A stretch of DNA of 64,000 bases from Temnopleurus reevesii (taxonomy: Eukaryota > Echinodermata > Echinoidea > Temnopleuroida > Temnopleuridae). The notes below the pieces were generated by a model, which was not told where the DNA came from, searched no databases, and was given only the letters and a program-made list of their open reading frames with translations. Shown one piece after another: positions 1,781 to 37,224 of this stretch; position 1 is the stretch's first letter; each line of letters starts with the position of its first letter. The DNA is taken from positions 44,682 through 108,681 of the forward strand of contig BQKZ01000737.1 in NCBI GenBank assembly GCA_036244855.1, given 5' to 3'. Made by a program: the position numbers and the translations under genes.

Positions 1781-1885
1781 CTGACCAGAATGCAGTACCC
1801 AAAAGAAAAAAGTTATCGATCCGGGCGGTCGTGAAGGAAGAAAGTACACCGGTCATCAGCCCGCCCTCTCAGACCCCTCTAGCAG
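1781..1885 (+). CDS. FHOD: FHOD linker exon 1 (phase 1-1, 35 codons)
   Basis: Acceptor CCTTTTATAG before 1781, donor AG/GTACAA at 1886. It reads DQNAVPKRKKLSIRAVVKEE and continues with a Ser/Pro/Thr tail. A basic patch followed by a short hydrophobic stretch and acidic residues is a pattern that recurs in exons 4 and 21. Its terminal G joins the AT of exon 2 to make Asp. Numbering starts at the first exon visible in the window. Confidence 0.75.
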
Positions 1886-3520
1886 GTACAAGAATTACCC
1901 CCTCCCCAATCCTGCAAGTGAATAACCCCCTCATTGTTCAATTTCCTTGTATGATATGGATATGTGGACTCCATAATTGTGTTTCAGAGTTCATATCATT
2001 GTCTTGTGATGAACATTTTTCATTCTCTCTCATGCCTTGGAATTCAGTGACTGTTGATGTGCCATCAATTAAAGTTAATTTCTAATTAACATACATTTTA
2101 TTCTCTTCCTGATATGTACCTTGAAATTTACAGTTTGAACGTGACTTGTTATTTACATAATTACCCTGGTTCATTCAATGATCACTACATTCCTAAGTTA
2201 CATTTCTTCAGGTTAAAACCTTACACAATGATGCTCAAACTTCACGTTATTTCTTAACTAATTTTATATTTCTATTTCCAAGTTTATTCAGGGGTACCTC
2301 CTAAATATTGAAACAGATGTCATACATGCAGAGTACATTTTGATACTAGGATGATATAAGAATTTTACTACTAACTAACACACATGCATGGCAATCAACC
2401 CATTAATTGCATTGCTTCTTAATGAATTAATCAAGCATTTAAAATGTTCTATTCCTTCCCCTCACAACTTACCAAATATATCATGTTGATTGAAATGAAA
2501 CTGTTCATTTTCCCTTTTCAGATGAGCATGGATTATGAATTATTGATGTGTTAAGTCCAGGACAGTTTAATGCTACATTGTTGTGTGATTAACCAGTGAT
2601 TTTTTTCCCGCTTGTGCACTAATAATCACATTTGATTATATCGGTCTTAAAAAATGTCCTTTTATTTCTGGATTTAGGATGAGCACTGCTCGCTTTTTCC
2701 ACTCAGATGATATTAGTCCAATTCCACAAGCACCAAGTCAATTAGTATTTACATATTGATTAATTGTTTTTCCATGTGTGGTTTTACAGCATGAGATATC
2801 ATGTTTGTTGTTGTTATGGTTGGCAACCTAGTCCTGGACTTTCATGTTTTAGTTTACGCTTCAGCATGGTTTTATCGTTGACACAATTAAAGGCTTTGTC
2901 ATATGCTGTACTTTTTTCTTGTCCTTCAGTTTTCCCTTTAATTGGTTAAATGTTTGTCCTTCTCAATATACATCGTGGTAGACATTGGATATGTTAGCGA
3001 TATTGTTATATGCAATTCCAATGAACCTCTATTTTTCTCCAGAAATACTTTTTTTTTCTATCTATGATATTCCACTTAGTTTTTTATACATCTATATTTT
3101 TTGTCAGATTTGCTACACTGATGTGATGAATATTTATGGATAATAATGTTCTGTGGTTTACCAAAGCAACTGGAAGTATGGATGTTTTAAATATTGAATG
3201 TTTTGGAGATACATTGAGTATATTTTCTTTTCTTTTTGAGACCTATTTACTCTTTGGTTTACACCACATGATATTAACTCTTGAAAACATTAGATGTCAA
3301 TATCTGTTTATTCATATCTTTTTGTCATTCTAGGAAGATTTAAGCCTGTATCATGCACAAAAACTTATTTGTCAACCTTTGAAATGAGAGGTATTTTCTT
3401 TCACAAAATAGCTATCATGATGTTATATAATGATTGACGTAATCAAGCTCTATCTCTTTATTTTGTATCCCTGTACCCTAATTGTTAAACCCAAAGATCC
3501 TCTTAGAAATGAAACATCAG

Positions 3521-3556
3521 ATTCTTATAAACAAGCAGCCCAGTCGTCATCACGTA
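3521..3556 (+). CDS. FHOD: FHOD linker exon 2 (phase 1-1, 12-codon microexon)
   Basis: Acceptor AACATCAG, a poor pyrimidine tract, and a perfect donor GTAAGT at 3557. It encodes SYKQAAQSSSR. A nearer TCTTAG at 3506 would give a 50-nt exon in the wrong phase, so the start at 3521 was chosen because it keeps phase 1 at both ends. The Ser-rich content matches later linker exons. The weak acceptor is the main doubt. Confidence 0.55.
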
Positions 3557-4521
3557 GTAAGTCAAGTGTGATGTGTCGTTATTTTGTCTCTAATTTTGTC
3601 AATTTTAAAGATGTAGAAAGGCATACTATACCAGAAGACTTACATTCCATATAAATTTGATGAATTTGGATTCCTCATCATAAATTTCAGATTTGTGTAG
3701 AATAAAATTTAGTATCAGAATGCTTCTTGAATGAAATAAGAGTCACTTTGAGTACAGAAAATGTTCCCAAACAGACAGAAAAGTTTGCAAGTAATAACAA
3801 AACAATTTAATGTCTTTTTTATTCATCTATTTGCCACACATGGGGTGGAACACCCTCCTTAGCCAAAAGGCTGTTCTTCTGAGGGGTCCATAATCTGTCA
3901 GTAATTTTACACTTGAATATCAGCACAATTGAAATTGTAAATATTGCATAAAATAATGTTTTTGAAACTATTGAAGTAATTGTAAGGTATATGTACAGCA
4001 TGTTAAATTTTTCAGTCTGATTTAAAAATGGTTGTTAACCTGTCAGCAACCTGCTCTTGAAGAATGTTTCACTTATTTCACTTTCAAGGTTGCAACATAT
4101 AAATACTGATTAAATGTTTGATACATTCAAATGTATGAAGAATAATTGTAAAAATTTGATTGAAATTCAAAGACATTATTTTGAATATAGTTATCAAATA
4201 TTATATCGGTTTGGTATATATTGCAATGAAGTGTGAGAATAGGATACTATAACATAGCATGGCCAACTTTGCATTTTGGTACAATTACACGTCTTCTGTG
4301 ATATTGCATCAACTTCAATCAATGCATCTTTGAGCATGCCTTAGGATGCCATAATGACAGCAAATAATTGCGCTAAGTGAGAGTCATTGAAGATTACATT
4401 TTAGAGGAACATAGATGTGTAACTAATAAAATTACACCATTAAGTCATAGAAATGCTTCAATTATGATGTAGTAACATTTTTATATTATCCTATTGACTT
4501 TAACTAAAACTTGTTGCCCAG

Positions 4522-5190
4522 GTGACAATCTTGCTAGTGATGCTTGCGAGTTTGAAACTTACGGACCAATGTCATCCTCTGTCGCCTTGGCAACAAGCCC
4601 AACAGATGGCCACGCCTCCGAACCAACCTGGTCGTCCGATGACCAGCATATTACCCAGAATGCCGTAGAGCACTTAGAGAGCATGGATGTGGAGAGTTGG
4701 GAAAAGGAAAATGATGAGATTCAGAGCTGTGATCCAGGTGATAGTCATGGCAACAGTGAGAGTACCGAGCTGCATGATTTTGCTGTTCATGAGAACTGGA
4801 AAAGTTCTCTGAAAGTTAGATTAGGAAGGGATAAAGATGAACTTACAAGTCATTACACTAGTTACACTGATGATAGTGACGCTAAAAATAAAGATGTTGG
4901 AGATGTTGAAGATTCATCTATCCATCATTCGGGAAAACTTGATGAGAATCATGATGATAGAAATAAAGACAGCGGAGATGATGAAGATGAAATTTTAGGG
5001 CATCCCAGGGAACTTGGTGGTAATGTTGATGGAAAGAAAGATGATGATAGAAATGATGAATTCCATGACCAAAATAATGATGATGCAGAGGAGATGATTG
5101 ATAAAAGCAAGAAATGTGATGAAATAGATGAAGACTCGCCAGATATCCATCGTTTCCATGACAGCTATAAGGATCACAGCTCTGAAGGAG
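4522..5190 (+). CDS. FHOD: FHOD linker exon 3, acidic (phase 1-1, 223 codons)
   Basis: Acceptor TTGTTGCCCAG, donor AG/GTATTG at 5191. The frame is open across all 669 nt and beyond. The first third is Ser/Thr-rich (GPMSSSVALATSPTDG); the rest is a highly acidic Asp/Asn/His/Lys-rich disordered segment with runs such as DDEDE and DDAEE. No folded domain is recognisable. A TGCATG element lies 5 nt into the downstream intron. Confidence 0.85.
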
Positions 5191-5194
5191 GTAT

Positions 5195-5200
5195 TGCATG
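5195..5200 (+). promoter_or_regulatory. TGCATG splicing element after exon 3
   Basis: Perfect TGCATG overlapping the start of the intron, 5 nt after the exon 3 boundary. RBFOX proteins bind UGCAUG, and sites just downstream of a cassette exon usually promote its inclusion. The function here is inferred. Confidence 0.5.
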
Positions 5201-5408
5201 TGTGTTCATGTGGTACAGGATTGTTCAACAGAACTCTGTTCTGATTTTTTTGACATAATTATAATTTGAAATTAGCTTTTGATATTCTAAGTGACAATAA
5301 CATCATTGTCTTCAAGATTCATTTCAACACATTTGTTCAAAACCTAGCACATCTTTATTTGTTGAAAAACTTCAATTAGTAATTTGGCTTTTCATTTCTG
5401 TATCAACA

Positions 5409-5928
5409 TTTAAAGCCCAAGTACAGTTTTGGTAAAGATGAAGAAATATGAATTTTGGGGATATTTATCATGACACGTAATTCTTATACACATTTTTAGA
5501 CCATAGCATATTTTCTTATGAACTGATTCCTTTGAAAATTTGAATTTGACAGTTAAATCATATTTAGCGCCCTCTCTTGGTAATAGCATTATTTTGCTCG
5601 TTATCGAGCATATACAAATATATTTCCAAGATTTGACAAAAGAATGATATAGAGATATACACAACAATTAAATTCATACATTTTCATCCAATTCTGAGAA
5701 TGGGAAGTTGTCCTTTATCAAGAAAGAAAATATTGAAATAGCGTGGTGAAGCACCACGCTATAAAAATTTGCACATTTCAGGTTATAGCTTTTCCAAAAC
5801 TCGTTCATTTTTCACACAATCTTTTGTGTAATATGTTTATGATACTATAATTCATTTCATATACATTTGAAGATAAAATCTGGTGATGAAAATATTCGCT
5901 TTTACCAAAACTGTACTTGGGCTTTAAA
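5409..5928. mobile_element. MITE family A, full-length copy
   Basis: Inverted terminal repeats TTTAAAGCCCAAGTACAGTT at the left and the reverse complement at the right (ending GGGCTTTAAA), with about 24-nt near-perfect arms. The interior is non-coding and contains GCGCCCTCTCTTGG and a small palindrome (AGCGTGGTG/CACCACGCT, about 5740-5760). It shares ends and interior with the copy at 42968-43488. TA or TTAA target-site duplication is possible; the palindromic ends make it ambiguous. Confidence 0.85.
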
Positions 5929-6990
5929 GCTGCAACCAATACTATAAACAATACATCAGATGGAATTTATTGAGACGTTCAATCCTGATACCCTGCATAT
6001 TGTGTGGATTAATATTACAAATACTTATTTAAGAATGGACAAAGATTATAACTACTTGAAATAATGATATTGCTGAGAACCTCACAGAGTAATGAAGATG
6101 CACGTTTGTGTATAGAGTTGAAATTAAGGTAAACAGATTTTGGAGAGCTGTACTCTTATTATCATCATCCAGACATAGAGTTGTTTCTTTTACTAAAACC
6201 TCTGTCATAAAAAGGTTCACAATTAATCTATAAATTCTTAATTTGGCATGGGTATTTCGTCAATATCATACTCGTCTTTTATTCGAGTGTATACCAATTT
6301 TACGCATTTGACCGTAGAAATTTGCGGTAATGTTCAACAATGATTCGCATGGTTTTACTCAGAGTTGCTTGTAAAGTGTTCTATCACATAATCATTGAGT
6401 ACTTTGCAGATTGGTTCTTGAATCGTGGTTAGAATATCCAGTCTTTGTCTGCTCACAATGTGTGTATAGTTGTCATCATCATTTGCCGTAGCATGCAGTG
6501 TTCAATTACAGTATAGAGGTTATAAGTAAAAACTTATTCAAAAGGTCTGAAAACTTCAGTTTATGCACTTGTAAACTGAAAATTTCAAACTATTTTTGAG
6601 GAGTCATTTAAAAAGTCATCATCTTTTGTGCATAATCTCCAGTCCCTTTATGCAGACATTCTAATCGTACCAGAATATGCATGATAGAATTTAAAATGTT
6701 AGAGCACAAGCAGCTGAACTAAATATTTTCCCATGCAAGAAAGTATGATTATTGTTCTCAGGCTTTCTCTCATGAGAAAATATTTGTTTCAAGTGTACAG
6801 TGTCTTGATTTATATTCTGATGTATATTCCGGAATGGATGGCATCTTTTTGTGTGTACCTCATGTCTTATAGTCATTGATTACTTCACCAAGAATGGACG
6901 CATGTTGTGCTGTGGTTCCCTCACAACTTAACCCAAACCACCTTGATTCATCTTGGTATTCACACATCCATCTCATTATTCCCTTCCAAG
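5929..6990. other. intron between exons 3 and 4
   Basis: About 1 kb of AT-rich intron after the MITE. The frame of exon 4 is open back to about 6876, but the good acceptor at 6981-6990 marks the exon start. Nothing else was recognised. Confidence 0.6.
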
Positions 6991-8189
6991 ATCGCCTCAG
7001 ACCGGTAGCGAAGGCCGAAGAAGGCAAGGAGAATGGGGAGGTGGAGACTAATGGAACCTGGCCCTCTCCAGCCCGCAGGAGGAAGCAGTATGAGAGAAAT
7101 GTGGAGAAACCTCGCAAGAAGAAGGAGGAGGATGATGGCGATGATATCATGGCGTTGCTAAGAGGTGGGGCACCATCGAAGGCAAAAGAGGAGACAAACC
7201 CGAAGAGGAAGCCGGTCGAGAATGGTGAGAGCCAGAAGCAGGGAGTTGAGGGTACAAGGACTAATGGTTCTAAGATCAAAGAGACTCCGGAAGCTGATAC
7301 GGGTGGGGACAAGTCCGCTAAACAAAATGGAACAGATGCTGCAAAGAATCGCTCAGGGGAACAAATGGCAGGGAAGACGACAACGGGAGAAAAGGATATT
7401 AAAAGACCAACGAATCAACAGACTGATGATGCTGCAAAGGATGATGGGAAGAAGAATGGAGAGAAAAAGAACGAGACCAAAGTGGAGAAGGACAAAGATT
7501 CAAAGGATGGAGCTAAAGAGAAGTCATCCAAGAAACCCGTTGTGAAGCGGAGGAGCTTCAAAGCCATGGTAAGCATCACCAGAGAAGAGGAAGAGATCGT
7601 TGAAGAAACAACGGATGTTACGCCGGCGAAGATGAATAAAGAACCTCCAGATGGAAAGCCAGATGAAACAAGCAAAACACCTTCTGATGATTCAAAGAAG
7701 GAGGAGAAACAAGTAAGCAAAGACCAAAAGAAAGATGAGGTTAAGGGGAAGTCTGAGATGGAAAAGAACAAATTGAATAAAGATATGAATAAGGTTAAGG
7801 AACTAGAGAATGTCAAAACCCCAGTTGGAAGCCCCAGGACGAGGAGAAGACAGCTCAGAGGTACAAAGAACATCTTCACGGAAGGGAAAGATGAGGATCT
7901 GATGACGCTTCTGAACAGTGGCACATCACTGCCAAGGAACTTTAAGACCAAAGACCACAAACAAGAACATAAACATCATCAGTGTAATGGGGAGCACAAG
8001 AAAAATGGAGCGACAGAACAAAAGAATGGATTGATCGAACAAAAGAATGGAAAGGGTGGGGATAAGAAGACTGGGAAGGATGAGACTGACTTTGGTACGT
8101 GGCCGAGGAAGAAGAAGAATAACAAGATTGAGAAGGAGGAAGACATCATGGCTTTCTTGAAAGGTGGGCTCGATTCAACACCTGACAAA

Positions 8190-8221
<32 letters not shown>

Positions 8222-8634
8222 GGAGGAGGAGGAGGGGCCAAGAGGACACATCTGTGATATCTGTGGGCAGAATCTCGACGAGATGGATGAAGATGATGAT
8301 GAACAGGAAAAAGAAGAAGAAAACCAAATTACCAAGGATGAAGAGGAAGAAGAAGAGGAAGAAGAGGAGGAGGATGAGACAAAGGATGAGTACTCCACCA
8401 AGTGCGAGGAGACTCTAGAGGGAGTCGACAAGGAGCCAGAGCTTTTCAGGCGTCACAGTCGGAAAGACAACAACATGGATGACCTCTTGATGATCTTACG
8501 TAGTGGCAGCCAGTCTGCGCCCTCACCAGAAGATGACGATGACGAGGATGATGATGACAATGAGGAGGAGGATGATGAGGGTGATGAGACATCGTCGTCT
8601 GAAGAGGAGGTCACTGTCAAAGAGAAACCGAGGA
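6991..8634 (+). CDS. FHOD: FHOD linker exon 4, giant charged exon (548 codons)
   Basis: Acceptor TTCCCTTCCAAG, donor GTGAGT at 8635; phase 1 at both ends. Lys/Glu/Asp-rich, probably disordered, with long Glu runs (about 8189-8235 and 8340-8375) and Asp/Glu runs near 8530-8590. Four copies of a DAD-core/WH2-like motif: GDDIMALLRGG (about 7137-7169), DEDLMTLLNSG (7890-7922), EEDIMAFLKGG (8136-8168) and MDDLLMILRSG (8475-8507). Each is preceded by an Arg/Lys cluster (RRRK, TRRRQ, PRKKK, FRRHSRK). GTWP occurs twice before such clusters. One unpaired CxxC (HICDIC, 8246-8263) is present, with no second half to make a zinc finger. The single exon is nearly half as long as a whole vertebrate FHOD1. 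Confidence 0.9.
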
Positions 8635-9524
8635 GTGAGTTCTTGTTTCACATGTTGACTTCTTAATTCCGTAATGACCAAAGTCTTGTTAGAAGACCAA
8701 TCAAACTCATAGTCAGGGAGCTCATACCTCAAAATTTGTGTTGACAATCCATGTTTGTCGGAAATGTTTCTGATCAGAGTCATTTTGAGTTTATGTTTAT
8801 GACATTTGATTCAGATTATCAGTATAAATTTTAATCTAAGATTATAAAAAAAAGTACAGTAAATCTCTTGTGATTTTAACTGAAAATGGCTCTGCTCTGA
8901 AAATGTTCTAATCATTTTTTTTCCTGGAAAGACCTTATACATCTTAAAGAAATATGAAAATTTATAAACAATTTTTTCATCCATTCCCAAACCTATTCCT
9001 TGTTTTAATGTATAATCCGTTTGATCCAAATCATGCAAATCATATTCACTGTGATTATCATTTTTCAAATACTTAAAGCATGGCTCTATTATCTCATCGT
9101 AAAAATATGTATCAATATACAAGTTTTATCTTTTACATTGGATATATACAAATATTATACTTTGCCTTTTTATGTTCAAGCCCCTGAGTGAAATCAACAT
9201 CATACTCTTGAAAATTGATTGAAAATTGATGCATGAATATGATATTCAACACCCAGTTATATTAATTACAATTGCTACATTTTTCATGATTTTCCATTTC
9301 CATTTAAGCATGTCTTCCATTAAAATGCTAGAAATACTGGTTTTACATCTAGTAATTATTTTATCTCAACCTTTTTGACTATTTATTTAATAACGAATAT
9401 ATATATATATTCATTTCTCCGTGTGAATGCTAAATATTGATAGTTGTCTGAAAATGGATTTCTGTAGTTTGTTTGAGGATTTTTATCACAATGGTTATCT
9501 TGTTTTTTCTCTTGATTTATCAAG

Positions 9525-9557
9525 GTATGTGGGGAATCTCCACAGAGAATTTGAATT
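9525..9557 (+). CDS. FHOD: candidate FHOD microexon 5 (phase 1-1, 11 codons)
   Basis: A strong pyrimidine tract ending in ATCAAG, then 33 nt, then a perfect donor GTAAGT at 9558. The phase matches the array exactly and there is no stop: after the split codon it reads MWGISTENLN. Unlike the other linker exons it contains Trp and few charged residues. Called from splice signals and phase only. Confidence 0.45.
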
Positions 9558-9756
9558 GTAAGTTTGTTTCTTTCTCTAATTTCATTTAAGTTGATAGTTA
9601 TGTTAAAAACATTATGTTAAAAGAATCAACTTTCTATAAATGTTTTTTTATATTGTATCTTATAGTAGGAATAGAGCTAAATATACAATTTCTTACAATT
9701 GTTCCTTTTGTTATCAAAATATTGTAAAATTGTTATCAATCTACATGTCTTTCAGT

Positions 9757-10171
9757 TGGGTATTTCCATGGGGTTGGGTCCACTTTTCATGCAAAGTCCA
9801 TGTAATGTAGTGATCCACTTTGTCACTTCACCATGAAGATCAATTCAGATCTTCTTAAGCTTTGATCTATTGATGAAAATTGCTTTTTTTTCTCAGTTAC
9901 ACACATTTGGAGTTGAAATCTTTTCTGGATTTGAAGGTACAGGTATACAAAAATTTCACTACGTTACATGGACATCCCACTGATGTTGCATGTGCAAGAA
10001 ATTGTCAGGTATCAAATTCCAATATGCTATGGTCTTTGAGGAATACTTCTGGGTGGGACACAGTTTTGGGGTAATGTCATTATTTTACAATACTTGCCTG
10101 GTTTGAAAAAGCCACAGATTTAGGGTTTCTGGATGTCACAAAAATAGACCCAACCCCGTGGAAATACCCAG
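9757..10171. mobile_element. short inverted-repeat element
   Basis: Left end TGGGTATTTCCATGGGGTTG, right end its near-exact reverse complement (about 26 nt, one or two mismatches). The interior has no coding potential. Looks like a MITE; only one copy is seen in the window. Confidence 0.7.
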
Positions 10172-10576
10172 TTGCAATTAAGCCGCAAACACAAGGTAGT
10201 TTTATTACTCTGTGCATCATCGGAGATAGAAGTTGCATTGCATTAATTTAGATAGATATTTTCAAACTATATTACAGTTAATCGAAGACATGGATAGAAG
10301 TACTTAGGTGCATGGAACACATTATTTAGTTGTCATGCACTCTGTTGACATGAATTCAATGAAGAGTGCATTTGTGTTGAAGCCATATTTTATAACAAAG
10401 ATTTGAATTTTTCTTTCATTGATACTGTACCATAGATTGAGTATTTAAATGCTTTTGTACTTCATAGTTCTGTTCTTTTCCTTCTTCTTGACATTCAGTT
10501 TGTGTTATATTATTTTGTCACGTCCTTTACAAGGATTCTTTGTTCATACTGCTTTCTCTCATTTCTATTTCTTTAG

Positions 10577-10621
10577 CCAACTCGTCATCATCCATTCTCT
10601 ATGATGATGCTAATGCTGATA
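10577..10621 (+). CDS. FHOD: FHOD linker exon 6 (phase 1-1, 15 codons)
   Basis: Acceptor TATTTCTTTAG, donor A/GTAAGT at 10622. It encodes NSSSSILYDDANAD. The first split codon becomes Ser after exon 5 or Thr if exon 5 is skipped, so both joins are open. Confidence 0.75.
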
Positions 10622-12064
10622 GTAAGTTTTTGTGTGTTGTCCTCCTTGACATGTTGATCTTTTATCCAGTATGAAATTAGAAAAAGATAAGAACACTTGA
10701 TTTAATTAGCTGCTGGAATTCTTTACTGGATAGAAATGATATGCTATGAATTGTATTTGCGGCACATTGATGATGAATATGCATTTAAAAAACTGTTTAT
10801 TTATTTATTAATTTGATGAATTTATGTATTAAGGGAAATGAAAGCCTTTTTATGTCTTGTAGTCTTGTACTGATAAATTAATTCTTGAATGATATTGCTA
10901 GCAAAACACTGTAAGTCTTTTCCTGTATTTCTGTATTTTGCCTGAGGTTAACAATATGTGTCTGTTGCATTTATAAGTTAATATCACATGCAGATGTGAG
11001 GAATGGCACATATATTCGTGCATCGATGTGCACTTTTTATACAAAATGTGGCCAAGTTTTCCCTTTTATAACTTAATTATGATGGTATACTTGTTGAATC
11101 TTAACAAACATGAAACACATCTCCTTGTCTGTCCGTTTTTGTAGTAATTGGACACAATTTGTGCACTATTTTTATGTAAGTACATGTGGCATATTACTCT
11201 CACATCCCAATTTTACATCGCAATTCATCAGAAAAATTGATAAAAAGATTGATGATTCCTGTAGCTTTTTTATTTCGTTGGCGTCCAAGACTGTATCTGT
11301 TACACACGTCGCCTCTATCACCACTAAATATCTGAACATTGTTCAATTTTTTTTTTGCAAAATTGCGTGCACTATCTCCTTGTAATACCCTGTATCACAA
11401 ACCTCACTGCTTTACCCCCCTGACACCCCCTTCTCTAGAATGGGCACGACTGGCCAACCCCGAACCCATCTTGCGGAAGACACATTGGGGGATGTTGCCC
11501 GCCACATGTGAGTTGTTACCATGGTTACGGTTGAGTTTGCGGTAGCGTGTTCTGCTCGGTTTCCAGTATTTATGCCTGGTTTGGTGTTGCATCTGATTTG
11601 TTCCATTTCAGCTTTGTGATCGACATATTTTTCTAGTCTGTTTAGATAAGAAGTTTGTATTCTTAGATTTTTAGGTCTGTTTTGAGTGTAACTTGTTAGA
11701 ATTTTGCATGACAAAAACTGAATTATCCATCAGCTGTAGAAAAAGATTACCTCTATTTAAAGGGTGAATTGCTTTTTTGGAGCAAGAATAATTGGTTCCT
11801 CTTTGACATGATACTTCTTCTACGGTTCCATAACATTTGCTCCATACTTAGACAATTGCTCCAATGGACAATATAGGCACATCACAGGAAGCCTTATTTC
11901 AAACCTAACCATAACCATAACCCTAATCCTCAGGTAAATCTGTAGCATAAAACCTATCACAACACATACCCTAATGCTATGTATGTTGAATCATTAGGAA
12001 TTGAGCAAATGTTGGGTCACTTCTTTTACTTATGGCTCAAAGAACACAAATTATTGGTTTTCTT

Positions 12065-27106: not shown

Positions 27107-27168
27107 ATCATTTTGTCACCTCTGTATAACAATCGTTAAAACGCATCAAAATATTTTATCTTTTCCAG

Positions 27169-27342: not shown

Positions 27343-27515
27343 TACAGTGGAAACTCCGTATAACAAGTTGCTTGGGACCATCAAATATACCTTGTTATAG
27401 CAGTTTTCTCTTTAGTTAAAAACCAATAAGTTATAAAGAGCTTGGACCAGATTTGTTTACCTCTTTATAGCAGTATTACGTTATATGAGATCTCTTTATA
27501 CTGAGTTTCCACTGT
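27343..27515. mobile_element. pogo/Tigger-like MITE, copy 1
   Basis: TA-flanked ends TACAGTGGAAACTCCGTATA and the reverse complement (ACTGAGTTTCCACTGTA). It carries GCTTGGGACCATCAAA near the left end, shared with the copy at 54444-54616. Confidence 0.75.
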
Positions 27516-28353
27516 ACTGAAACATGTAATACGTCATCTCACAGCAAAGTACTTGATACATGAAACTCATGCTGTAATACATCCAGTATCTACAAAATTG
27601 GCCACAAGGTTGTAAGACTGAAAGTTGTGTAGTGTGCGGCAACCTTCAAGGAATTTTAAGTTCAATCAATTACAGAATCTGAACGTAGCAAGTGATATAT
27701 GTAGACCCCCAAGTCACTGTGAAATCTCGATTTAATACAATTGATTTACCAGTTACATTCTATGTGATCTATGCTATTTGCCCCTCTTTATTCAGGGGCA
27801 GTTAATCAGGTTAATCAGGAATCAACTAGACAAAGATTTGTGCTAAATTGGATTGAATTGTGGCTTCTATATGACAGGAGGCTTTACCCATTGTTGTTAT
27901 AAAGACAGTATTTTGTCATGACAACAATGTTTTTTTTTATTTATAATGTTCACCATATGATTGTTAACAAGACTGTGGTGGACTTCAAGTATTAGTATCC
28001 ATATACTGTTGTATAAATTTTGTACTGTAGTATAAAATTCATGAGTTTTATGTTCTTGACGCTTTGGCTTAGCAGAATGAAAATTAAAACTTTTAAAGAT
28101 CTTAGGAAGTAATGAAGTGCATTCTAGCACCTTACTTTTTCTTCTTTTTCCTGTAGTGTGCATAAAACCTCCAAGGAATATTGTCGCTCATCAGTTGGTT
28201 GTACTTGCTAGATACATTGTGTGCAAATACTTTATGTAGCATATATGGATCATCAATGTCATCTATTCTTAGGTTTAAAAATTGAAAAAAATAATAACAA
28301 TTTAAAACAAATAATTGAGATTGAATTTCTTTATCCTCTTTTGACTTCATCAG

Positions 28354-28422
28354 GCTCAAGAACATCATCATCTAGGAGGACAGACACAACACCAAGCACG
28401 TCCATGGATGTCTCTTCTGGAA
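28354..28422 (+). CDS. FHOD: FHOD linker exon 17 (23 codons)
   Basis: Acceptor TTTGACTTCATCAG, donor GAA/GTAAGA at 28423; phase 1-1. It encodes SRTSSSRRTDTTPSTSMDVS followed by SG, a Ser/Thr-rich disordered piece with one basic SRR patch. Confidence 0.85.
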
Positions 28423-29056
28423 GTAAGATGGTCCTTCTTGAGCTCAGTATTTAGAGATAATTAGAACCCGGTCCAGAAATTTAATATTCATATATCTAGA
28501 AATAATCAGAAAATTCTGTGTTACAATTAGGAGAATTTTTAGATTGGGGGTAAACTAAAATGAAAGTTAACCCTTTGCGTGCGGGCCAATGCTCATTGGC
28601 CATGACAAGCATTTGTTACCAGTATTAGCAATTTGGAAATGATTATCTTATTTGATGATGAATTTCATTTTTTTAATTGACTACTTGTTTTTCAGTTCAT
28701 GTGCCAAAGAATGAGATGTTTTTCCCTGTCTAAGAATGTTACTTTTGTTCTTGGCGTTGCTAGATAATTTTACTCGTAAAAGTATTTAACGAATGAAAAG
28801 TCAACCTCATTTCTGATAACTTGTCTGTAGAAGCCTGTTACCACCAAAGGTTTCATAAAAAAACTTTCCTATCTCTTATTTCTTTTTTTTTTAGTTGATC
28901 TCTCTTATTGATTATTTTCCTGAAAGGAATATTTGGCTATATCTTTGAAAATGTATTGAATAATAAGTACCAGCCCTTCCCTAACAAATATAAACTATAC
29001 TAATCAGTTTTGGGTTCAATGTGGTATATTGGTCTTTTTGTATATTTTTTTTCCAG

Positions 29057-29116
29057 GTGTTTCATACAGAAGAAGAAGAAATAGAGACACAGATTCAGAA
29101 TCAGTCGCATCCACAG
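29057..29116 (+). CDS. FHOD: FHOD linker exon 18, Arg cluster (20 codons)
   Basis: Acceptor TTTTTTTTCCAG, donor CAG/GTAAAA at 29117; phase 1-1. It encodes VSYRRRRNRDTDSESVASTG. The aromatic-Arg cluster-acidic layout recurs in exons 20, 21, 22 and 24. Confidence 0.9.
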
Positions 29117-29621
29117 GTAAAACCAGTGGTCAATACTCAATGAAAGCCCCTAGTCTTTAAGAGGAGATTTAAAGCTGTCTGTCAAGTGTAGAGAAGAGAA
29201 ACACAATTTGAACATAAAATAACCTGCTTTCCTCTCAGGAAAGAGTACCAAATTTTTCCAGGGGAGAATAGATATGCAATCTATGCCGCAATTTCGTCAA
29301 AGAAAATTAGTACCATTTGTATAAGCTTTACTCTGAAATAACATATTGTGCTGGGAATGTCATTGAACTTCAAGTAATCAATAATTCAAGAAAAGGCTAC
29401 CAATTTGAATGTATCTTAATGACTTTTATTCATTGTCTTTCCAAATTATACATGGAATAGCATGATATATGACTTCGTATAAAAAGAACATTTTTGCTGT
29501 AATATAATATATGATTTATTTATTGATATCAGTAGAAAAATAAATCACAAGTATTTTTGCATCTTCAAGCTTTCCTCTTAAAATGACAATTTTCTTTTGA
29601 TCCAATCTCTCGTAATTGTAG

Positions 29622-29666
29622 ATACAACTGAAACAAAGAAAGAAGAACCTAGCCAACCAGCGATGT
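29622..29666 (+). CDS. FHOD: FHOD linker exon 19 (15 codons)
   Basis: Acceptor CTCGTAATTGTAG, donor TGT/GTAAGT at 29667; phase 1-1. It encodes TTETKKEEPSQPAM. It ends in T, so joining it directly to exon 21 through the AAG acceptor (skipping exon 20) would create TAA. Confidence 0.8.
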
Positions 29667-29710
29667 GTAAGTAGAGTTTTATTTTGTCAAAATTTATATC
29701 GTACATAGTA

Positions 29711-29817
29711 TTAAAGCCCATATTTAGTTTTGGTAAAGATTACAAATGTGAATTTTATGACATGTTTAGCATGACACATATATCTTAGTTTTTACCAAAA
29801 CTTTACTTGAGCTTTAA
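29711..29817. mobile_element. MITE family A, internally deleted copy
   Basis: 107 bp with the same ends as the 520-bp copies (TTAAAGCCC at the left, TTTACCAAAACTTTACTTGA at the right). Only about 50 nt of interior remains. A deletion derivative about 45 nt downstream of exon 19. Confidence 0.8.
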
Positions 29818-30213
29818 ACAAAGATTAATAGTAAGAAAATATGCACAGAAAAATAATAAAATCACAGAATTGAATGCAAATACTCAATTTGAAATAGAGT
29901 ACTGACTTTCTGAAGCCACATTTTAATTATTAATTTGAATATGATGTTTTAATAATCCTGTGTCAGCAGATAGAATACAATCTCGAGATACAAAATAGCT
30001 ATAAAACATGAGGTTCATGTTTCCATTGCATGATTCATATAGATCTGCCGGCCAAACCTCATAAACCAGTAATTAAAACCACATCATACAATCCAAATCA
30101 AATGCATTATTCCTTATAATGACTTTTGCTGTTTCTCATTATTATTTCAACATAAGATGATTCCAAAACATATTTTTTTTATGTATGACCTCTCACCTTT
30201 GACCCTAAACCAG

Positions 30214-30291
30214 CTTCCTATGTGCCAAGGTCGAGAAGAAGACCAGAAGTTGTGGAAGAGAAACCAAAAGAGGAAAAACCAGATGAAGACA
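30214..30291 (+). CDS. FHOD: FHOD linker exon 20, Arg cluster plus KPEE (26 codons)
   Basis: Acceptor TTTGACCCTAAACCAG, donor ACA/GTAAGT at 30292; phase 1-1. It encodes SYVPRSRRRPEVVEEKPKEE followed by KPDED. The Pro/Glu/Val/Lys composition is like PEVK-type elastic segments. Confidence 0.9.
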
Positions 30292-31306
30292 GTAAGTAGA
30301 ATATAATAGAATAATTACTACTGTCAAAGAACAAGTTTACTTAGATAATTGAATAAGAATCATTCCAATATGCATAGATGTCAACCATTCCAGAATTTGC
30401 TTGAGCTGTGTTTTCACATGAATTCTAGGCTCTTATAACAAATGACTGGTATAGAGCATGGTTATAGTTGTAATGTTTGCTCCTGCTTTTGTTCAGCTGT
30501 TGCATTATTCACGTTATACTTTTGACCTTGTGTATATTCCAGAACGGTTGGCATCTAGGTATATGCGTCTGAAATCCCATCGAATAAACACAACCCCAAA
30601 AAGTAACTACCTCTTCTTGAAATTAGCATATATTTTTAACGGAAGGATTTTCAGATAACAAATTTAGCAATAATATTAATCAATTTCTAGCCAAGAGCGG
30701 GTGTGTGAAAATTGAAATGATCGAATGAGGAATGCATAAGTGAACACAAATCACAGAGAAAATTTAACTTTTTATAAGTCACAAAGAGTAGGCAAAATTA
30801 TGAGGATATTTTGATGAACCAAAATTAATGATAAGCAGTATGATTTGTGAGCTAGCCATGGTAGAAAATCCGAAGAAAAACTTTATATATACAGTAATGA
30901 ATACAAAAATAATTTATGCTAACATGCTGCCACTGTCCAATGCCATCAAATGATTCTTATCCTGCCAAAAAAATCACCAATCTATTAAAAATATGCCAAC
31001 ATTACATTCGATTTGACAAAATTATCTATCTGATAAGGTTCATTGTTCAAAGCCACCCAATATATTGAATAATACACGACAGTGCTTTGTGATCTAATTC
31101 AATGAAGAAAATTATTCATAAACAAATAATTATAACAAGTAATTATAACAAGTAATTATAACATTAATTGAGGTATATTATGCATCTTTGCTGCAAAATT
31201 GTTATAAAAAGTAGAACCAACATATCTAAATGCTTCCTGTCTCTCCTTATCATGCATGAAAATGAAATGATAAGTATATGAAATGTTGATATCTATCATA
31301 CAGCAG

Positions 31307-31369
31307 AAGTTAGATTTAGACAACGTGTCATGTTTAGTATCGCTGAAGATGAAGAAGAGGATTGTACAG
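31307..31369 (+). CDS. FHOD: FHOD linker exon 21, NAGNAG acceptor (21 codons)
   Basis: The acceptor is a tandem CAGCAG (31301-31306). Using the first CAG adds one codon and changes the split codon from Lys to Thr-Glu. Donor CAG/GTATAA at 31370; phase 1-1. It encodes VRFRQRVMFSIAEDEEEDCT. Confidence 0.85.
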
Positions 31370-32655
31370 GTATAAAATCATATTTTCAATGATTAAAAAA
31401 AATATATCACTCTTCAACGGGCTTCCATCTGCTTCTGCTTATAAAATAAAATTATTAATTCTCTTTCCTAATGATTACCATCATTTTCTTAATCTTAATG
31501 TACTTGATTGAGTAATATTTGCTTGCTGTCCATGAATATTTTTATGCGTAAATATGTCATTTCATATCTTGATTATCATATTATCCAGTTATTATCAGTT
31601 ATTGATTATATATGCCCTGAACTATTATTGCTCAATACCCTTATTCAATTTAATCATTTGAATAACAATATTTTATTGCATGATCAACGTATCTTATATT
31701 GAAGTAATATTCCATACAATTTTAACATTACCTTCATTTAATAAATTCATCAAATAATATATTTCAATACATATTTTCAAACTTATGATTTATAATACAC
31801 TCTGGAAAAGATTGAATCATGTTTTAAGCTCAAAACAATTCATGATCATGCAAATGATAAAAGTTTTCGTTGTCATGTAGCATTTGTGATGGGAAAGATA
31901 CATATCTACATCAACTTATCATAAATCCTCTGTGATATTTTGATATTTATTTTTCATATGATGTTACCTGTTTGGGATAATATAGGTTTAACTCTGTGAA
32001 TGATGTGTGAGCATGCTGTCTCCTATGCCTGTTGTGTTTTTATACATACATTTGAAACAACCGGAGTATTTATTGGATTCAGGAGTTGTGGTATTCATTG
32101 AAACTTTAGGAAATTGTTTCTGTATGCATCACATTAATAGGGAATTCATATCAATTTTCTTGCCAATATGTGGTTACCAAGACATTATTATAGTAAATTA
32201 TGCAGGAAAAAGCCACACTGATTTTCTACTCATTTAATTAATGAAGTATTGATCATTGAAAAGATTGAATTAATTCATTAGCTACTGGAACCAGATGCCC
32301 CTTGTAGAAAGTCTATGGACATATAAAAACTCAGTAGTCAATGGGTTAAATGAATCTGCATCATAGAAAGGTTTCAATGATGCGAGTTTATTATTTTCTC
32401 CAGTAGAGAAAAAAAAATTCAAAAAAAAACCTAATAATTATAATTTTTGTAATGGTTAATGATTTATCATCTGAGATTACTGACCTGTATAATGGTTTAT
32501 ATTCTCTCTATATATATCTCTCTCTTATAATAGATGAACTATTTAGAAAGAAGACAATTTTTTATTTTGTTGAAATTTGTAATGGTTACTGATTCATCAT
32601 CTGAAGGTATATATAGTTCTAAATATGGTTTTACCACCTTTTGAAACCATGAAAG

Positions 32656-32745
32656 ACTCGACCACAAGCATGCCGTATCGAAGCAGACGACGAAGACTGC
32701 TTGATGAAGCAACTGCTAATACTACTTCTTCTACCAATCAGGAAT
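32656..32745 (+). CDS. FHOD: FHOD linker exon 22, Arg cluster (30 codons)
   Basis: Acceptor CCATGAAAG with a modest upstream pyrimidine stretch; donor AAT/GTGAGT at 32746; phase 1-1. It encodes STTSMPYRSRRRRLLDEATA followed by NTTSSTNQE. The MPYRSRRRR cluster resembles exons 18 and 20. It ends in T. Confidence 0.8.
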
Positions 32746-32779
32746 GTGAGTTTGTTTGTGCTTGATCCCAAAAGCATCA

Positions 32780-32960
32780 TCTGTGTGTGACCTTTGCTTG
32801 ACCCTTATTTGACCTTTCCATGACCCTTCCATGACACTTCTATGACCTTTCCATGATCCCGTTCACTTGCATGACCCCTACTGTACCTTTCCATTACCCC
32901 TGTTCAACTTTTACATGACTCTTGTTTGACCTTTGCATGACCATTGCTCGAGCTTTGCAT
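32780..32960 (+). repeat. imperfect TGACC(C/T)TTNCA simple repeat
   Basis: About a dozen degenerate units of the type TTTGCATGACC, TTCCATGACC and CTTTCCATGA just downstream of exon 22. Non-coding. Confidence 0.6.
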
Positions 32961-33076
32961 GAGGGTTACTTGGTATAGCATGAGTTCTGAATGGTACCAT
33001 CAGGTCTGCCAGAATTTCATAGAGAATAAAGAAAATGAAAAAAAATCAGAATTTCAGAAAGAATGATATTTGCCCA

Positions 33077-33903
33077 TATCCTACTGCTATCACAATGGTA
33101 CTAGGCCATATCCCACTGCTGCCACCATACCATTGGTTCATATCACACTGCTGCCACCATACCATTGGTTCATATCCAACTACTATCACCATACCAATGG
33201 TTCATATCCCACTCTGCTGCCACCATACCATTGGTTCATATCCCACTGCTGCCACCATCTCATTGGTTCATATCCCACTGCTGCCACCGTACCATTGGTT
33301 CATATCCCACTGCTGCCACCATACCATTGGTTCATATCCAACTACTATCACCATACCATTGGTTCATATCCCACTCTGCTGCCACCATACCATTGGTCCA
33401 TATCCCACTGCTGCCACCGTACCATTGGTTCATATCCCACTGCTGCCACCATACCATTGGTTCATATCCCACTGCTGCCACCATACCATTGGTCCATATC
33501 CCACTGCTGCCACCATACCACTGATTCATATCCCACTGCTGTCACCATACCATTGGTCCATATCCCACTGCTGTCACCATACCATTGGTTCATATCACAC
33601 TGTTGCTACCATACCATTGGTTCATATCACACTACTGCCACCATACCATTGGTTCATATCCCACTGCTGCCACCATACCACTGATTCATATCCCACTGCT
33701 GTCACCATACCATTGGTTCATATCACACTGTTGCCACCATACCATTGGTTCATATCCCACTGCTGTCAACATACCATTGGTTCATATCACACTGTTGCCA
33801 CCATACCATTGGTTCATATCACACTGCTGTCACCATACCATTGGTTCATATCCCACTGCTGTCACCATACCATTGGTTCATATCCCACTGCTTTCGACAT
33901 GAT
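33077..33903 (+). repeat. 32-bp minisatellite, about 26 units
   Basis: The unit is ATACCATTGGTTCATATCCC followed by ACTGCTGCCACC (32 bp); variants carry TATCACACT, GTTGCC, GTCACC, or a 2-bp insertion (CCACTCTGCTG). Because 32 is not a multiple of 3, all three + frames stay open and produce spurious long ORFs. It lies in the intron between exons 22 and 23. Confidence 0.95.
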
Positions 33904-34300
33904 ATTGGTCTTTGTCCTAACGCTTCTGACCGGCCATTGAAATAATTCATGGCCTGTATGATTACCTTTTGATTTCTGTATGACCACTTCAATCCTGCTC
34001 TGACTTTCCCACTTGGCTTTGATTGCTGAATAAAAAAAAGTGTGAGCATGCATAGTCTTCCATTTTCCCAATATAAAATGTTATAAATCATTAATATTTT
34101 AAACCTAAAAACTATGACCTCTAAATGATTTAATTTACTAAAACATTTGACAGTTGCATGTGAATTAGGATGCAAGAAATTTAATAATGAAAACTTAACC
34201 TTTTATCTGCCCGCTTACCCATTTTATGGAACTAGAAGAGGCATGTTTGGTCATGTTAAAATTTGGATAGATCAATAAAACTTCTCCCTCCATTTCGCAG

Positions 34301-34408
34301 CGAGCACCAAATCATCAGAGAAAAGTTCAAGAGATAGAACAACATCAGAGTCTTCAGACAAAACAGCCGATAAGACTGCTGGAGACAAGGGGTTAAAGAA
34401 ACCAGACT
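34301..34408 (+). CDS. FHOD: FHOD linker exon 23 (36 codons)
   Basis: Acceptor CCCTCCATTTCGCAG, donor ACT/GTGAGT at 34409; phase 1-1. It encodes STKSSEKSSRDRTTSESSDK, then TADKTAGDKGLKKPD. Ser/Lys/Asp-rich and disordered. GGCATG occurs twice within 30 nt downstream and TGCATG at about 34481. Confidence 0.85.
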
Positions 34409-36196
34409 GTGAGTTTGGCATGGAAAATATGGCATGAATTGTTTTAACCCACAAAATGCCAGACTAAATGAACACATGATTGCATGATGAATATCCACCG
34501 ATGCAGGAAACTTCTTTTTGAAAAACACATTTGAGATTTTTACGAATCAAGCTTCTCTGAAAAATAAATCTTTCCGAGGTCACCATAAAATTTTGTTCTT
34601 GCTTTTGTTTTGTCTGTCAAGTATTAAAAGAATATTTTGAATGATGAAAATATTGCTTTCCTGTCGAATCGATAGGTTTCAAATTTCCAATTCATAATGA
34701 AATTGAGAGCAATAGATACGGAGAGAAAAAACACTGTTCATGTAATACATATCAAAGTGTTTGACGATGCATGTTTGACCTTTGCTGCTATTGAATGAAG
34801 AAAGTTTTCTCACTATGTGAAAAGGATCATTATCTTCTTATCAATTAAAAATACATCTGTATCTGCTCTATTTCTGACATTATTATAATGCTACTTCTTT
34901 GATTAAATTTCAAATGCTTGGAGATCACCACACAGGGTTGGATTTTTTTAACAAGCATGAGACAACTATAGTTATCATTTGAATTTGTGTTTTATTTCTA
35001 TCACATTTTTTAAGTGGATTCCCATGAAGACTGTTTCTTGAATCAGTTCCCCACAATTTTTCTCATAAAATGGAGTACACAATTTTGTAATCTATCAAAC
35101 GGTGTCAGTTAAGGCATCATACATGCTGTATATGTATGAAATATATTTCATTGTTTATTTATCAGAAAAGTGTGGTTTTGTTTGCTGTATTCATGATTGT
35201 TATTCATATTAATGCATGATTTCATCAATTTCTTCAGAAAGTGATGGTAGCCAAGAGGGTATCTTATGAAACCATCCTGATACTATACATTTTCATTGAA
35301 ATGTTCTCTTTCATAGAATCAACATGCATTTCATAAGGATTCCCTTTCAATATTTGCTATATCAAGATTTATTCATCTTTATGCTGCACTACCCTTTGGC
35401 TACCATTACTTTGTGAAAGGGGACAAATTGCAGTTTGCATGAAAGTACAAGAATATAACCTTCTCTTATATTACCAATCCCCTCCTAAGATGCATGCATT
35501 TTCAGGTGTATGATGATCATGTCATTCAGTATTTTTAACTTTTCAGATAACATTTTTGACTAATAACCCAACGTTCAACATTTATCAACTTCTCTATTAT
35601 CAATGTTTAATGTATGAAATTATAATTGTCGCCCTCTTGCATATCATCATGGCATGAAAAGTATTGTAAAATCAGAAATGTATGTAAAGCAAAATAAAAG
35701 AGACAGAGAGAACGTGACAAATAACTGGGTGATGTTATTAAGTGTATTGTATGCATTCACCTTTTTTGGAAATGTGAAAAAACAAACTGGACTACATGTA
35801 CGCCCCCAATTAATAATTGGTTTATAGCTGTCGAAATGGAGTCAAGTATCATGATTTGAATGAAGTTTTAGCATGATGACATTTTTTTCTCCGAGAAGCG
35901 AGCTGTATTGTACAAGTTTTAGAATGATAACATAGCAGATTTTCTATACACCTGTTTCAGTGAACAAAAGTAGAACTGAACTGAGGCCATGGGATAAGCC
36001 AAATTGAATATGAATTTTAAGAAATCGTAGAATACGGTCCCATATTCTAAAAAAATGGAATCCAACTGTTTAAGTTGATTAGATTAGACAACTCAGTTAA
36101 TGAACTTTTTGTGTAATATTTCATTTTTGGGTAAATGACACCTTGTAATCTTTTCCAAACTCAACATTGACACGATTTCCCCAAACCGCCCTACAG
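34409..36196. other. 1.8 kb intron between exons 23 and 24
   Basis: AT-rich intron. A 21-nt exon-like segment lies at 35238-35258 (see findings). Nothing else was recognised. Confidence 0.5.
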
Positions 36197-36424
36197 ATCT
36201 AACCAATGGTATCGCTGCTCGTCGAAACAGAAGAACGGAGGCGGAGAAAGATGAGACAACTTCCGCACAAGCAAAGAAAGATAGCGATAGCAGATCGGCA
36301 AATTTCATCTTGAGCCAGCTCAGAGGTGGCGATGTGAAGCCAACAGAGAATGGAGATATCTCAACGAGTAAGAAGCCGGATGATGAAGTATCCAATAGAT
36401 ATAGATGGAGAACAGACAGAACAG
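36197..36424 (+). CDS. FHOD: FHOD linker exon 24 (76 codons)
   Basis: Acceptor CCGCCCTACAG, donor CAG/GTATGG at 36425; phase 1-1. It encodes LTNGIAARRNRRTEAEKDET, then SANFILSQLRGGDVKP and VSNRYRWRTDRT. FILSQLRGG is a diverged form of the linker motif lacking the D-I-M core. Arg clusters lie at both ends. Confidence 0.9.
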
Positions 36425-36529
36425 GTATGGAAAGTTTTTCATATTCTTTATTAAGTACGATATCGCCATAAATATCTGATCTAATTATTTTTCTAGATAA
36501 CATTAAGGATGAGTATGAGAAAATTGACA

Positions 36530-36815
36530 ATATCATTGATAAGATATTATAAGGAAAAAGGGACAAAGGATTTTGACAAAGTAGACAACTTCATTTATGC
36601 CTTCACAATAGCTTTAGGAACACAAATAGGGAAAGTCGCTTCCCTTTTTATTCAAGGAACAGATGCGACACCTGTTCAACATTTCTCAGCAGAATAAGAG
36701 GGGGGGGGGAATTTCTTTTGTGAGCATCTAGCAATTTTGAATAATCTAATGGAGGTTTTTTTTTTGTTTTTTTTTACTTTGTTCAAGTCTTTTGTCCCTT
36801 CTGCTCACAGTTTAG
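36530..36815 (+). repeat. dispersed repeat, shared with 46400-46640
   Basis: It contains ACAACTTCATT, then CAACATTTCTCAGCAGAATAAG, a TGGAGG-T-rich stretch and CTTTTGTCCCTTCTGCTCACAG, all matched in order at 46450-46640. Possibly the 3' tail of an old duplicated or retroposed gene fragment. Confidence 0.6.
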
Positions 36816-37026
36816 ATATGTATTTTTATATATGCACATGTTAGCTTTAGCCAAGAATATTTCTGCTCATAGGGACCAAAAATAAATTCAATTCCTGCTG
36901 GGCATATGTTGTTTTTTTTAATGCAAATTTGGATCGAAAATTTTGCCATGAATGCTTATGTGTAAAATGGAAAAAATGTGACCCCTTATGATTTTTTTAA
37001 AAATTGTCAAACATTTGCAATATTAG

Positions 37027-37224
37027 CTGATTCCACAGAGAAGGAGAAGCCAGGTGAGACCAAGGCAGTAAATGGTGACATATCTTCAACACATAAACCA
37101 AATGGAGAAGTGGAAAGCAAGACGAGAGATGTGAGCAAGGAACCGGTCCAGGACAGCAAATCAGCAATACAAGAAACCAAAGATGAGAAGAAACCGGAAG
37201 AAAAGAAGAAGAGACTTTTCACTG
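37027..37224 (+). CDS. FHOD: FHOD linker exon 25, Lys/Glu-rich (66 codons)
   Basis: Acceptor TTTGCAATATTAG, donor CTG/GTGCGT at 37225; phase 1-1, the last symmetric exon before FH1. It encodes DSTEKEKPGETKAVNGDISS and ends DEKKPEEKKKRLFT. NGDIS is shared with exon 24 (TENGDIST), which suggests the two exons are related by duplication. Confidence 0.85.

Follow-up and report, generated by a model that had tools for sequence, protein, structure and literature searches.

The window analysed here is a 64,000-nucleotide (nt) stretch of the sea urchin Temnopleurus reevesii (positions 44682-108681 of the 154-kb contig BQKZ01000737.1, in a 558-Mb assembly), and its + strand holds most of the gene of an FHOD formin, an actin-assembly protein. 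The part of the protein between the autoinhibitory DID and the catalytic FH1-FH2 part, here called the linker, is encoded by a run of 25 predicted exons (e1-e25), all readable in the same phase and lying among introns rich in the word GCATG. These exons are likely to be cassettes whose inclusion or skipping, under Rbfox-type factors, would give the protein short binding modules or take them away, and the probability of this reading was put at roughly 0.6. The flexible middle of the protein is probably built from optional modules, because the exons run in multiples of three and their introns are GCATG-rich.

Linker exons and their phase

The exons were called from splice sites and open frames, and all but e7 have AG/GT ends. 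An exon that begins and ends in phase 1 is given as 1-1.

e1, 1781..1885, +, 105 nt, 1-1, only phase 1 open
e2, 4522..5190, +, 669 nt (alternative end 5199, 678 nt), 1-1, only phase 1 open
e3, 6991..8634, +, 1644 nt, 1-1, only phase 1 open, four motif copies inside
e4, 9525..9557, +, predicted 33-nt microexon, 1-1
e5, 10577..10621, +, 45 nt, 1-1
e6, 11439..11507, +, 69 nt, 1-1
e7, 13282..13500, +, 219 nt, 1-1 only with a presumed start in a poly-C/N tract
e8, 14274..14360, +, 87 nt, 1-1
e9, 15583..15723, +, 141 nt, 1-1, weak acceptor
e10, 16429..16602, +, 174 nt, 1-1
e11, 18362..18730, +, 369 nt, 1-1, only phase 1 open
e12, 20188..20265, +, 78 nt, 1-1, fifth motif copy inside
e13, 22101..22160, +, 60 nt, 1-1, only phase 1 open
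e14, 23669..23740, +, 72 nt, 1-1
e15, 25629..25688, +, 60 nt, 1-1 (phase 0 reading better against relatives)
e16, 27169..27243, +, 75 nt, 1-1
e17, 28354..28422, +, 69 nt, 1-1
e18, 29057..29116, +, 60 nt, 1-1
e19, 29622..29666, +, 45 nt, 1-1 (phase 0 reading better against relatives)
e20, 30214..30291, +, 78 nt, 1-1
e21, 31304..31369, +, 66 nt, 1-1
e22, 32656..32745, +, 90 nt, 1-1, weak acceptor
e23, 34301..34408, +, 108 nt, 1-1, only phase 1 open
e24, 36197..36424, +, 228 nt, 1-1, only phase 1 open, degenerate motif at 36298-36330
e25, 37027..37224, +, 198 nt, 1-1, only phase 1 open, in-frame alternative acceptor 37039

A preliminary description of this DNA had claimed a run of about 25 linker exons of one phase, and the run was recovered: 25 consecutive predicted exons of 33-1644 nt (median 78 nt) at 1781-37224 can be read 1-1, the start of e7 being inferred. 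All 25 are multiples of three, given an e2 end at 5190 or 5199 and an e7 start at 13282, and they encode about 1,610 residues. A long same-phase symmetric run is a feature of the titin PEVK type, and here it comprises 25 predicted exons and 26 phase-1 introns. The 16 other introns placed in the gene were of phase 0 (nine), phase 1 (four) or phase 2 (three); from this rest-of-gene frequency of 4/16, a p of about 2e-16 was obtained for 26 phase-1 introns in a row, which is a descriptive figure.

Phase 1 is forced by the frame alone in eight of the 25 exons (e1, e2, e3, e11, e13, e23, e24 and e25). When exons were chained without regard to phase, 13 of 16 linker exons came out 1-1 at a higher penalty and 15 of 18 at a lower one, the other three lying around e5-e7. 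A greedy scan at a score of 16 found 1-1 candidates in 8/11 cases in the linker vs 0/2 on the linker antisense strand, with 1/10 in the DID region (antisense 1/4) and 1/6 in the FH2 and 3' part (antisense 1/1). The contrast was weaker at a score of 8, with 10/18 in the linker vs 3/12 antisense, 1/13 in the DID region (antisense 1/14) and 1/12 in the FH2 and 3' part (antisense 3/5). The coding score was trained partly on exons from the same window. Acceptor scores were weak for e9 (-7.2), e22 (-5.1) and e25 (-7.1), and that of the FH2 exon f1 was also low (-3.1).

For e7, the best visible acceptor (13316) gives entry in phase 2 and a 2->1 exon, and the acceptor at 13333 (168 nt) creates TAG when joined after e6. 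By eye, the frame remains open further upstream, with a serine-rich translation resembling that of the rest of the exon, until it reaches a poly-C tract (13261-13283) with a single N at 13282. We infer that the true start is hidden in this tract, a probable local assembly error; it was placed at 13282 because the frame stays open to the N, and with this start the exon is 1-1 and the TAG after e6 vanishes. When further copies of the e7 region were sought, only the window itself matched. The count excludes three candidate exons, namely 35238-35258, which gives TAA when joined after e23, 3497-3556, which has a very weak acceptor, and 3334-3390, which is plausible and unsupported.

The run is preceded, outside the window, by the exons D6 (contig 39228-39481, 0->2) and D7 (contig 43058-43218, 2->1), and the upstream exon phases in order are 0->1, 1->0, 0->1, 1->0, 0->0, 0->2 and 2->1, those through 0->2 having been chosen among several listed splice sites. 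A single ancestral phase-1 intron, flanked by the 2->1 exon and the FH1 exon, is presumably where the linker exons were gained, since only symmetric 1-1 exons keep the frame there. By eye, the D7 peptide RRGLSVQNDDVTTPTT..EMLTLEERRQRLRERR looks like the stretch that follows the DID in starfish. In the hemichordate Ptychodera, AlphaFold2 predicted an isolated helix (block predicted local distance difference test score, pLDDT, 76 and 63) in the RQRRERL segment that comes after its DID (P0018:439-457), by eye the equivalent of this 2->1 exon.

Intronic GCATG, exon joining and isoforms of relatives

The second line of evidence lies in the linker introns, in which word counts were compared with those expected from trinucleotides.

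1886..37676, +, linker introns, 31,045 intronic nt with an excess of GCATG on the sense strand (83 sites; antisense 40)

GCATG was the most enriched pentamer of these introns, with 83 sites where 30.1 were expected (40 and 35.0 for the reverse complement), and it remained raised when four repeat stretches were taken out (72 and 28.0; 36 and 29.3 for the reverse complement). In the same repeat-free sequence, TGCATG was seen 37 times vs a mean of 15.2 (standard deviation, SD, 3.7, maximum 26) in 200 simulations. A minisatellite with a unit of roughly 31 nt (CCACTGCTGCCACCATACCATTGGTTCATATC) lies at 33066-33900 in the e22-e23 intron, and was excluded from the repeat-free counts. Elsewhere in the gene, GCATG was close to expectation in the DID introns (32.7 kb, 28 vs 31.4), the D7-e1 intron (3 vs 2.4), the FH2 introns (21 vs 17.7) and downstream (7 vs 8.4). 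The density in the linker introns was 2.67 per kb vs a genome sample mean of 1.08 (SD 0.50, maximum 2.10), the sample consisting of 30 strand values from 15 usable of 20 stretches, two of them at least 2.0.

With repeats included, TGCATG occurred within 300 nt of linker exons 15 times downstream (4.7 expected) and seven times upstream (3.4 expected), vs none downstream (2.2 expected) and two upstream (0.7 expected) of FH2 exons. GCATG is the core of the Rbfox site, according to passages of PMC12435732, and enrichment of (U)GCAUG in flanking introns, a feature of Rbfox-regulated exons, was found here. Rbfox-type proteins may act on the window's exons through these predicted sites, and would then choose inclusion or skipping of the linker exons.

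The preliminary description had also implied that splicing could alter the linker without harm to FH1/FH2, and skipping proved largely frame-safe: with e2 ending in G, 320 of the 325 possible forward pairs of exons gave no stop codon at the join. Were e2 to end at 5199, with a final T, further stop-making joins would arise. The few stop-forming joins were not taken as evidence of selection, because base usage alone could yield them.

Annotated isoforms of related animals provide the nearest record of skipping. Phase was inferred from the junction residues of indels between isoforms of one species, with Sparus left out. The 18 starfish indels comprised seven informative, ten ambiguous and one complex, and all seven informative ones (Patiria 2, Acanthaster 4, Asterias amurensis 1; several share a junction and are not independent) fit phase 1 and not phase 2. 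A starfish donor after ...QP is joined to two (Patiria), four (Acanthaster) or four (A. amurensis) acceptors in the same linker; the first residue after it is K, S, T or N, each of which can be coded with A as first base. Starfish isoforms differ by cassettes in the same linker, and the window's exons would likewise be alternative.

Vertebrate FHOD3 yielded 29 indels, of which the five informative ones (Hemicordylus 1, Gallus 2, Neomonachus 1, Bos 1; representing about two distinct exons) all lay in the linker and fit phase 2, not phase 1. The array is therefore not simply an enlarged vertebrate one, as vertebrate linker cassettes fit phase 2. Among other animals, the nemertean Lineus had one phase-1 indel (residue 2294, near the C-terminus) and one of phase 2 (residue 1304), and the ant Camponotus had one of phase 1 (residue 2523, near the C-terminus).

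Some exon peptides resemble those of relatives. Weak matches were obtained for e6, e12, e18 and e24 (tblastn E 0.36-3, shuffle p 0-0.03), among them WARLANPEPI of e6, which resembles starfish WLNRANPQPI (E=1.8, p 0.02), and GIAARR of e24, common to other echinoderms (E about 3, p 0.03). The e4 peptide scored above 60/60 shuffles against 11 ambulacrarian linkers, and by eye resembles a starfish SPWSAHSTD segment.

A linker motif and competing explanations

The linker also contains an acidic amphipathic motif of the EDDIMALLSQG type, of the form [DE]-x-hydrophobic-[ML]-x-[LF]-L-x-x-G, in five copies, four in e3 and one in e12.

Copy 1, 7140..7169, +, DDIMALLRGG, in e3
Copy 2, 7890..7922, +, DEDLMTLLNSG, in e3
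Copy 3, 8136..8168, +, EEDIMAFLKGG, in e3
Copy 4, 8475..8507, +, MDDLLMILRSG, in e3
Copy 5, 20196..20225, +, NDIMALLSQG, in e12

The pattern was drawn after the copies had been seen, and armadillo-repeat matches were dropped; it was never met in 500 composition shuffles of the window linker. Copies per FHOD were 10 in Saccoglossus, 10 in Ptychodera and 1 and 2 in Glandiceps (hemichordates), 9 in Anneissia, 7 in Antedon and 5 in Apostichopus, and, in starfish, 7 in Acanthaster isoform X5, 6 in each Asterias species, 1 in Acanthaster X20 and 0 in Patiria. Most ambulacrarian FHODs thus have the motif. Among the 200 non-ambulacrarian FHODs returned there was one match (Electrophorus), inside a fused sodium/hydrogen exchanger. 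A database search with the motif array gave three proteins, which were the query itself, a Saccoglossus FHOD and a Glandiceps gene model. No match was found for three linker pieces in Pfam up to E=1, or for two motif stretches among PDB sequences up to E=10. A repeat of tyrosine plus polybasic residues was rejected, with only 1-2 per protein in six proteins and the window, too few for a claim.

The strongest candidates for binding modules are the motif copies of e3 and e12, and inclusion would select the partners or the location of the formin, by analogy with vertebrate FHOD3. Free combination of exons is limited, e3 being 1644 nt long with 4/5 of the copies; because this one exon holds them, motif number can change only in blocks. 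The motif array itself appears optional, judging from annotated starfish models with and without it, although the full-array Acanthaster models lack a DID match.

Several gene models of relatives carry the array in unusual settings. Acanthaster P0009 starts with MSASRDRKD and has the motif array without a DID; P0006-P0008 share its motif positions, with no DID family listed, and isoform X20 (P0004) has the DID and one motif only. The DID-less models may stem from an internal promoter or a split model. In Glandiceps talaboti, LOC144437296 (P0221) is a separate gene model with nine motif copies, on a contig equal in size to that of FHOD, and is either a split gene model or an array transcribed on its own.

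A number of observations weigh against the cassette reading. The window's own gene was read from DNA alone, so that its exon combinations are predictions, and most of the starfish isoforms are computational RefSeq models, which were paired with the window by linker position and not exon by exon. Seventeen of the 25 exons are open in two or three frames, their phase 1 coming from neighbours, coding score or homology, and e7 is 1-1 only with the start assumed for it. When 24 exon peptides were compared with 11 ambulacrarian linkers (e3 left out, e7 taken from 13333), 14 were no better than shuffles (p>0.1), and phase 0 beat phase 1 for e15 (p 0.08 vs 0.62) and e19 (p 0.04 vs 0.42). Splice-site scores differed little between the two regions, those of the linker (donor mean 2.9, acceptor mean 2.4) being slightly weaker than those of FH2 (3.9 and 2.6). 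Five of the 325 joins make a stop (e4 to e6, e12 or e16; e6 to e12 or e16); e4 cannot join e6, and therefore skipping of e5 alone would break the frame. In strand asymmetry GCATG ranked 8th of 710 pentamers, not first, and its reverse-complement hexamer CATGCA was mildly raised as well (26 vs 15.4 expected). Other words were also raised in the linker introns with repeats included, namely TGCTGC (17 vs 6.3) and TGTGTG (19 vs 10.5). CTCTCT (11 vs 6.2) and minisatellite-like words also exceeded expectation there, and TGCTGC was raised in the FH2 introns too (6 vs 1.8).

The strongest alternative is that the run is an inherited structure of no regulatory meaning, with mostly constitutive exons that share a phase through descent from one phase-1 intron or because disorder tolerates symmetric exons. 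The same phase alone need not mean skipping, large exons such as e3 look constitutive, and the stop-making joins of e4 and e6 would suit a fixed exon order. This explanation is nevertheless rather unlikely, as annotated starfish isoforms skip in the same linker, the GCATG excess is confined within the gene to the linker introns, and the median exon is only 78 nt, with microexons of 33 and 45 nt.

A second alternative, put forward in the preliminary description, is tuning of length as in titin PEVK, whereby splicing would set the reach of the tether from the DID to FH1-FH2 and exon sequence would matter little. The titin-like architecture of 25 symmetric exons was borne out, and a frame-safe array of about 1,610 residues would suit such a function, as would the lengths of the ambulacrarian FHOD proteins returned (1537 to 4064 residues, in a search range of 1321-4203). 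For the length function itself no evidence was found, and FHOD3 linker exons instead add a binding site. Linker sequence does seem to matter, because a motif is shared by echinoderms and hemichordates and exon peptides match relatives weakly; tuning of length was accordingly regarded as improbable. The array was read as a set of optional binding modules, and not as a spacer of variable length, because the linker exons of vertebrate FHOD3 are the nearest tested case.

The least probable proposal, for which we see very little room, treats the linker motifs as additional, internal DAD cores. They would rival the C-terminal DAD in binding to the DID, and the strength of autoinhibition would then be set by splicing. 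In its favour, the pattern D-x-hydrophobic-M/L-x-L-L is common to the motif and the FHOD DAD, and RRRR comes after the motif in some hemichordate copies, as in the bipartite FHOD1 DAD described in passages of PMC12858348. Against it, a leave-species-out profile of the motif placed the true DAD only at ranks 6 to 117 among the non-motif segments of the same protein (ten proteins), AlphaFold2 left both motif copies of Ptychodera residues 1-860 unstructured (block pLDDT 27-40, from an 8-row alignment with no positive control), the two motif stretches matched no PDB sequence, and single substitutions in the FHOD1 core motif caused no measurable loss of DID binding in pull-downs, according to parts of PMC12858348. 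The resemblance by eye was stronger than the numbers, and the idea was left unsupported by profile ranking and AlphaFold2.

The cassette reading can be carried further, to a splice-programmed ambulacrarian FHOD. In this form an Rbfox-controlled block of about 25 symmetric exons, built up within one ancestral phase-1 intron and independent of the vertebrate phase-2 cassettes, would determine how many ligand motifs, and of which kinds, are displayed between the autoinhibitory and the actin-assembling domains; among them would be a multivalent EDDIMALLSQG array peculiar to echinoderms and hemichordates. One gene would thereby yield a variety of formins that differ in partners and in location, in muscle and elsewhere. 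This extended form is tentative, and on balance we doubt it.

The rest of the gene and known systems

The linker is followed by the FH1 exon and ten further exons.

e26, 37677..38788, +, phase 1->0, end of linker and FH1
f1-f4, 43593-43751, 44318-44500, 45346-45465 and 48985-49146, +, FH2 and following exons of mixed phases
f5-f8, 49814-49929, 50344-50418, 51032-51224 and 51868-51991, +, FH2 and following exons of mixed phases
f9, 53923..54078, +, 1-1, C-terminal DAD with DEMIQILVNTA at 53979-54011
f10, 55738..55827, +, last exon, RRTLKSGL..., stop codon

The exons after the FH1 exon have phases 0-0 (four times), 0-2, 2-2, 2-0, 0-1 and 1-1 (the DAD exon). The earlier statement that the FH2 exons switch to phases 0 and 2 was nearly right.

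Among the matches listed, starfish FHODs are the nearest to the formin whose linker and FH1-FH2 are encoded in the window. The predicted FH1-FH2-DAD part matched Pfam FH2 with E=2.1e-85, as well as formin FH2 chains of the PDB (19 distinct sequences). Residues 1880-2400 of the predicted protein (the FH2 region) were searched against 5.8 billion proteins, and the closest among the matches listed was a starfish (Patiria) FHOD, with 63% identity over 98% of the query, followed among the best listed by FHODs of crinoids, a sea cucumber and hemichordates. No sea urchin name appeared among the best 120 of 3243 and the best 120 of 144 matches in two length-limited FHOD searches, in which the names were truncated.

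The same contig has six DID segments upstream of the window, and 15 of 20 ambulacrarian queries matched each of them; a GBD was not found, contig bases 1-7578 being N. By eye, the C-terminal DAD is present with an extended basic tail (TDEMIQILVNTA...RERKRTRNTNRKS | LRRTLKSGL, in f9 and f10). The FH2 domain, the DID exons on the same contig and the best-listed relatives, all of them FHOD, confirmed the earlier assignment of the gene.

Partial duplications were seen at several places outside the linker. Upstream of the window, DID exon D2 occurs twice (contig 9373-9467 and 13662-13756, with a further listed stretch at 24742-24833), and part of D4 is repeated near contig 25124-25221; these are either tandem duplications or unmerged haplotypes of the assembly. 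By eye, a second in-frame copy of the 3' half of f2, followed by GT, lies in the intron after f2 (44589-44680) and is possibly an alternative FH2 exon, and a partial copy of f4 (LLHHLAATMMEQFPESVSFFLEVGN, then a stop) lies after f4 at 49248-49330. Downstream of the gene, a minisatellite with a unit of roughly 25 nt (CATATCTGACTTTTCTTTCAACATT) occupies 61270-61860.

In titin, the PEVK and I-band region is a long run of small symmetric exons coding for disordered sequence. Unlike that region, the run described here lies between an autoinhibitory and a catalytic domain and contains motifs common across ambulacrarians, and elastic length is without support here.

Vertebrate FHOD3 is a closer parallel. 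According to passages of PMC3324543, its linker exons 11 and 12 are kept in heart and skipped in brain and kidney, and in mouse they are needed for sarcomere localisation; a 175-residue linker insert of FHOD3 binds cardiac MyBP-C, according to parts of PMC10192571. The present gene is similar in having alternative exons, as predicted, in the disordered region between DID and FH1, those of FHOD3 being muscle-regulated in the passages cited (PMC3324543, PMC10192571). It differs in having about 25 linker exons and not two, in phase 1 and not phase 2, and in the EDDIMALLSQG-type pattern, which vertebrates in the 200-protein set lack save in the exchanger part of the fused fish model. The dense (T)GCATG in the introns around the exons is like the clustered deep-intronic (U)GCAUG elements bound by Rbfox that are described in passages of PMC12435732, whereas the excess here is diffuse, over about 36 kb and many exons, and its sites are predicted. 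A literature search of titles, abstract starts and selected passages found no comparable exon array in FHOD.

FHOD formins build and maintain contractile actin arrays, and a few linker exons decide the sarcomere position of vertebrate FHOD3. Judging from the intron phases, this linker may have been enlarged in two animal lineages by way of different introns. If the cassette reading is true, the array would be about ten times larger than that of vertebrate FHOD3, with its own cis-signal and a lineage-specific repeated motif, and echinoderm embryos and muscle would offer an accessible model for the retargeting of a formin by splicing of its disordered linker.

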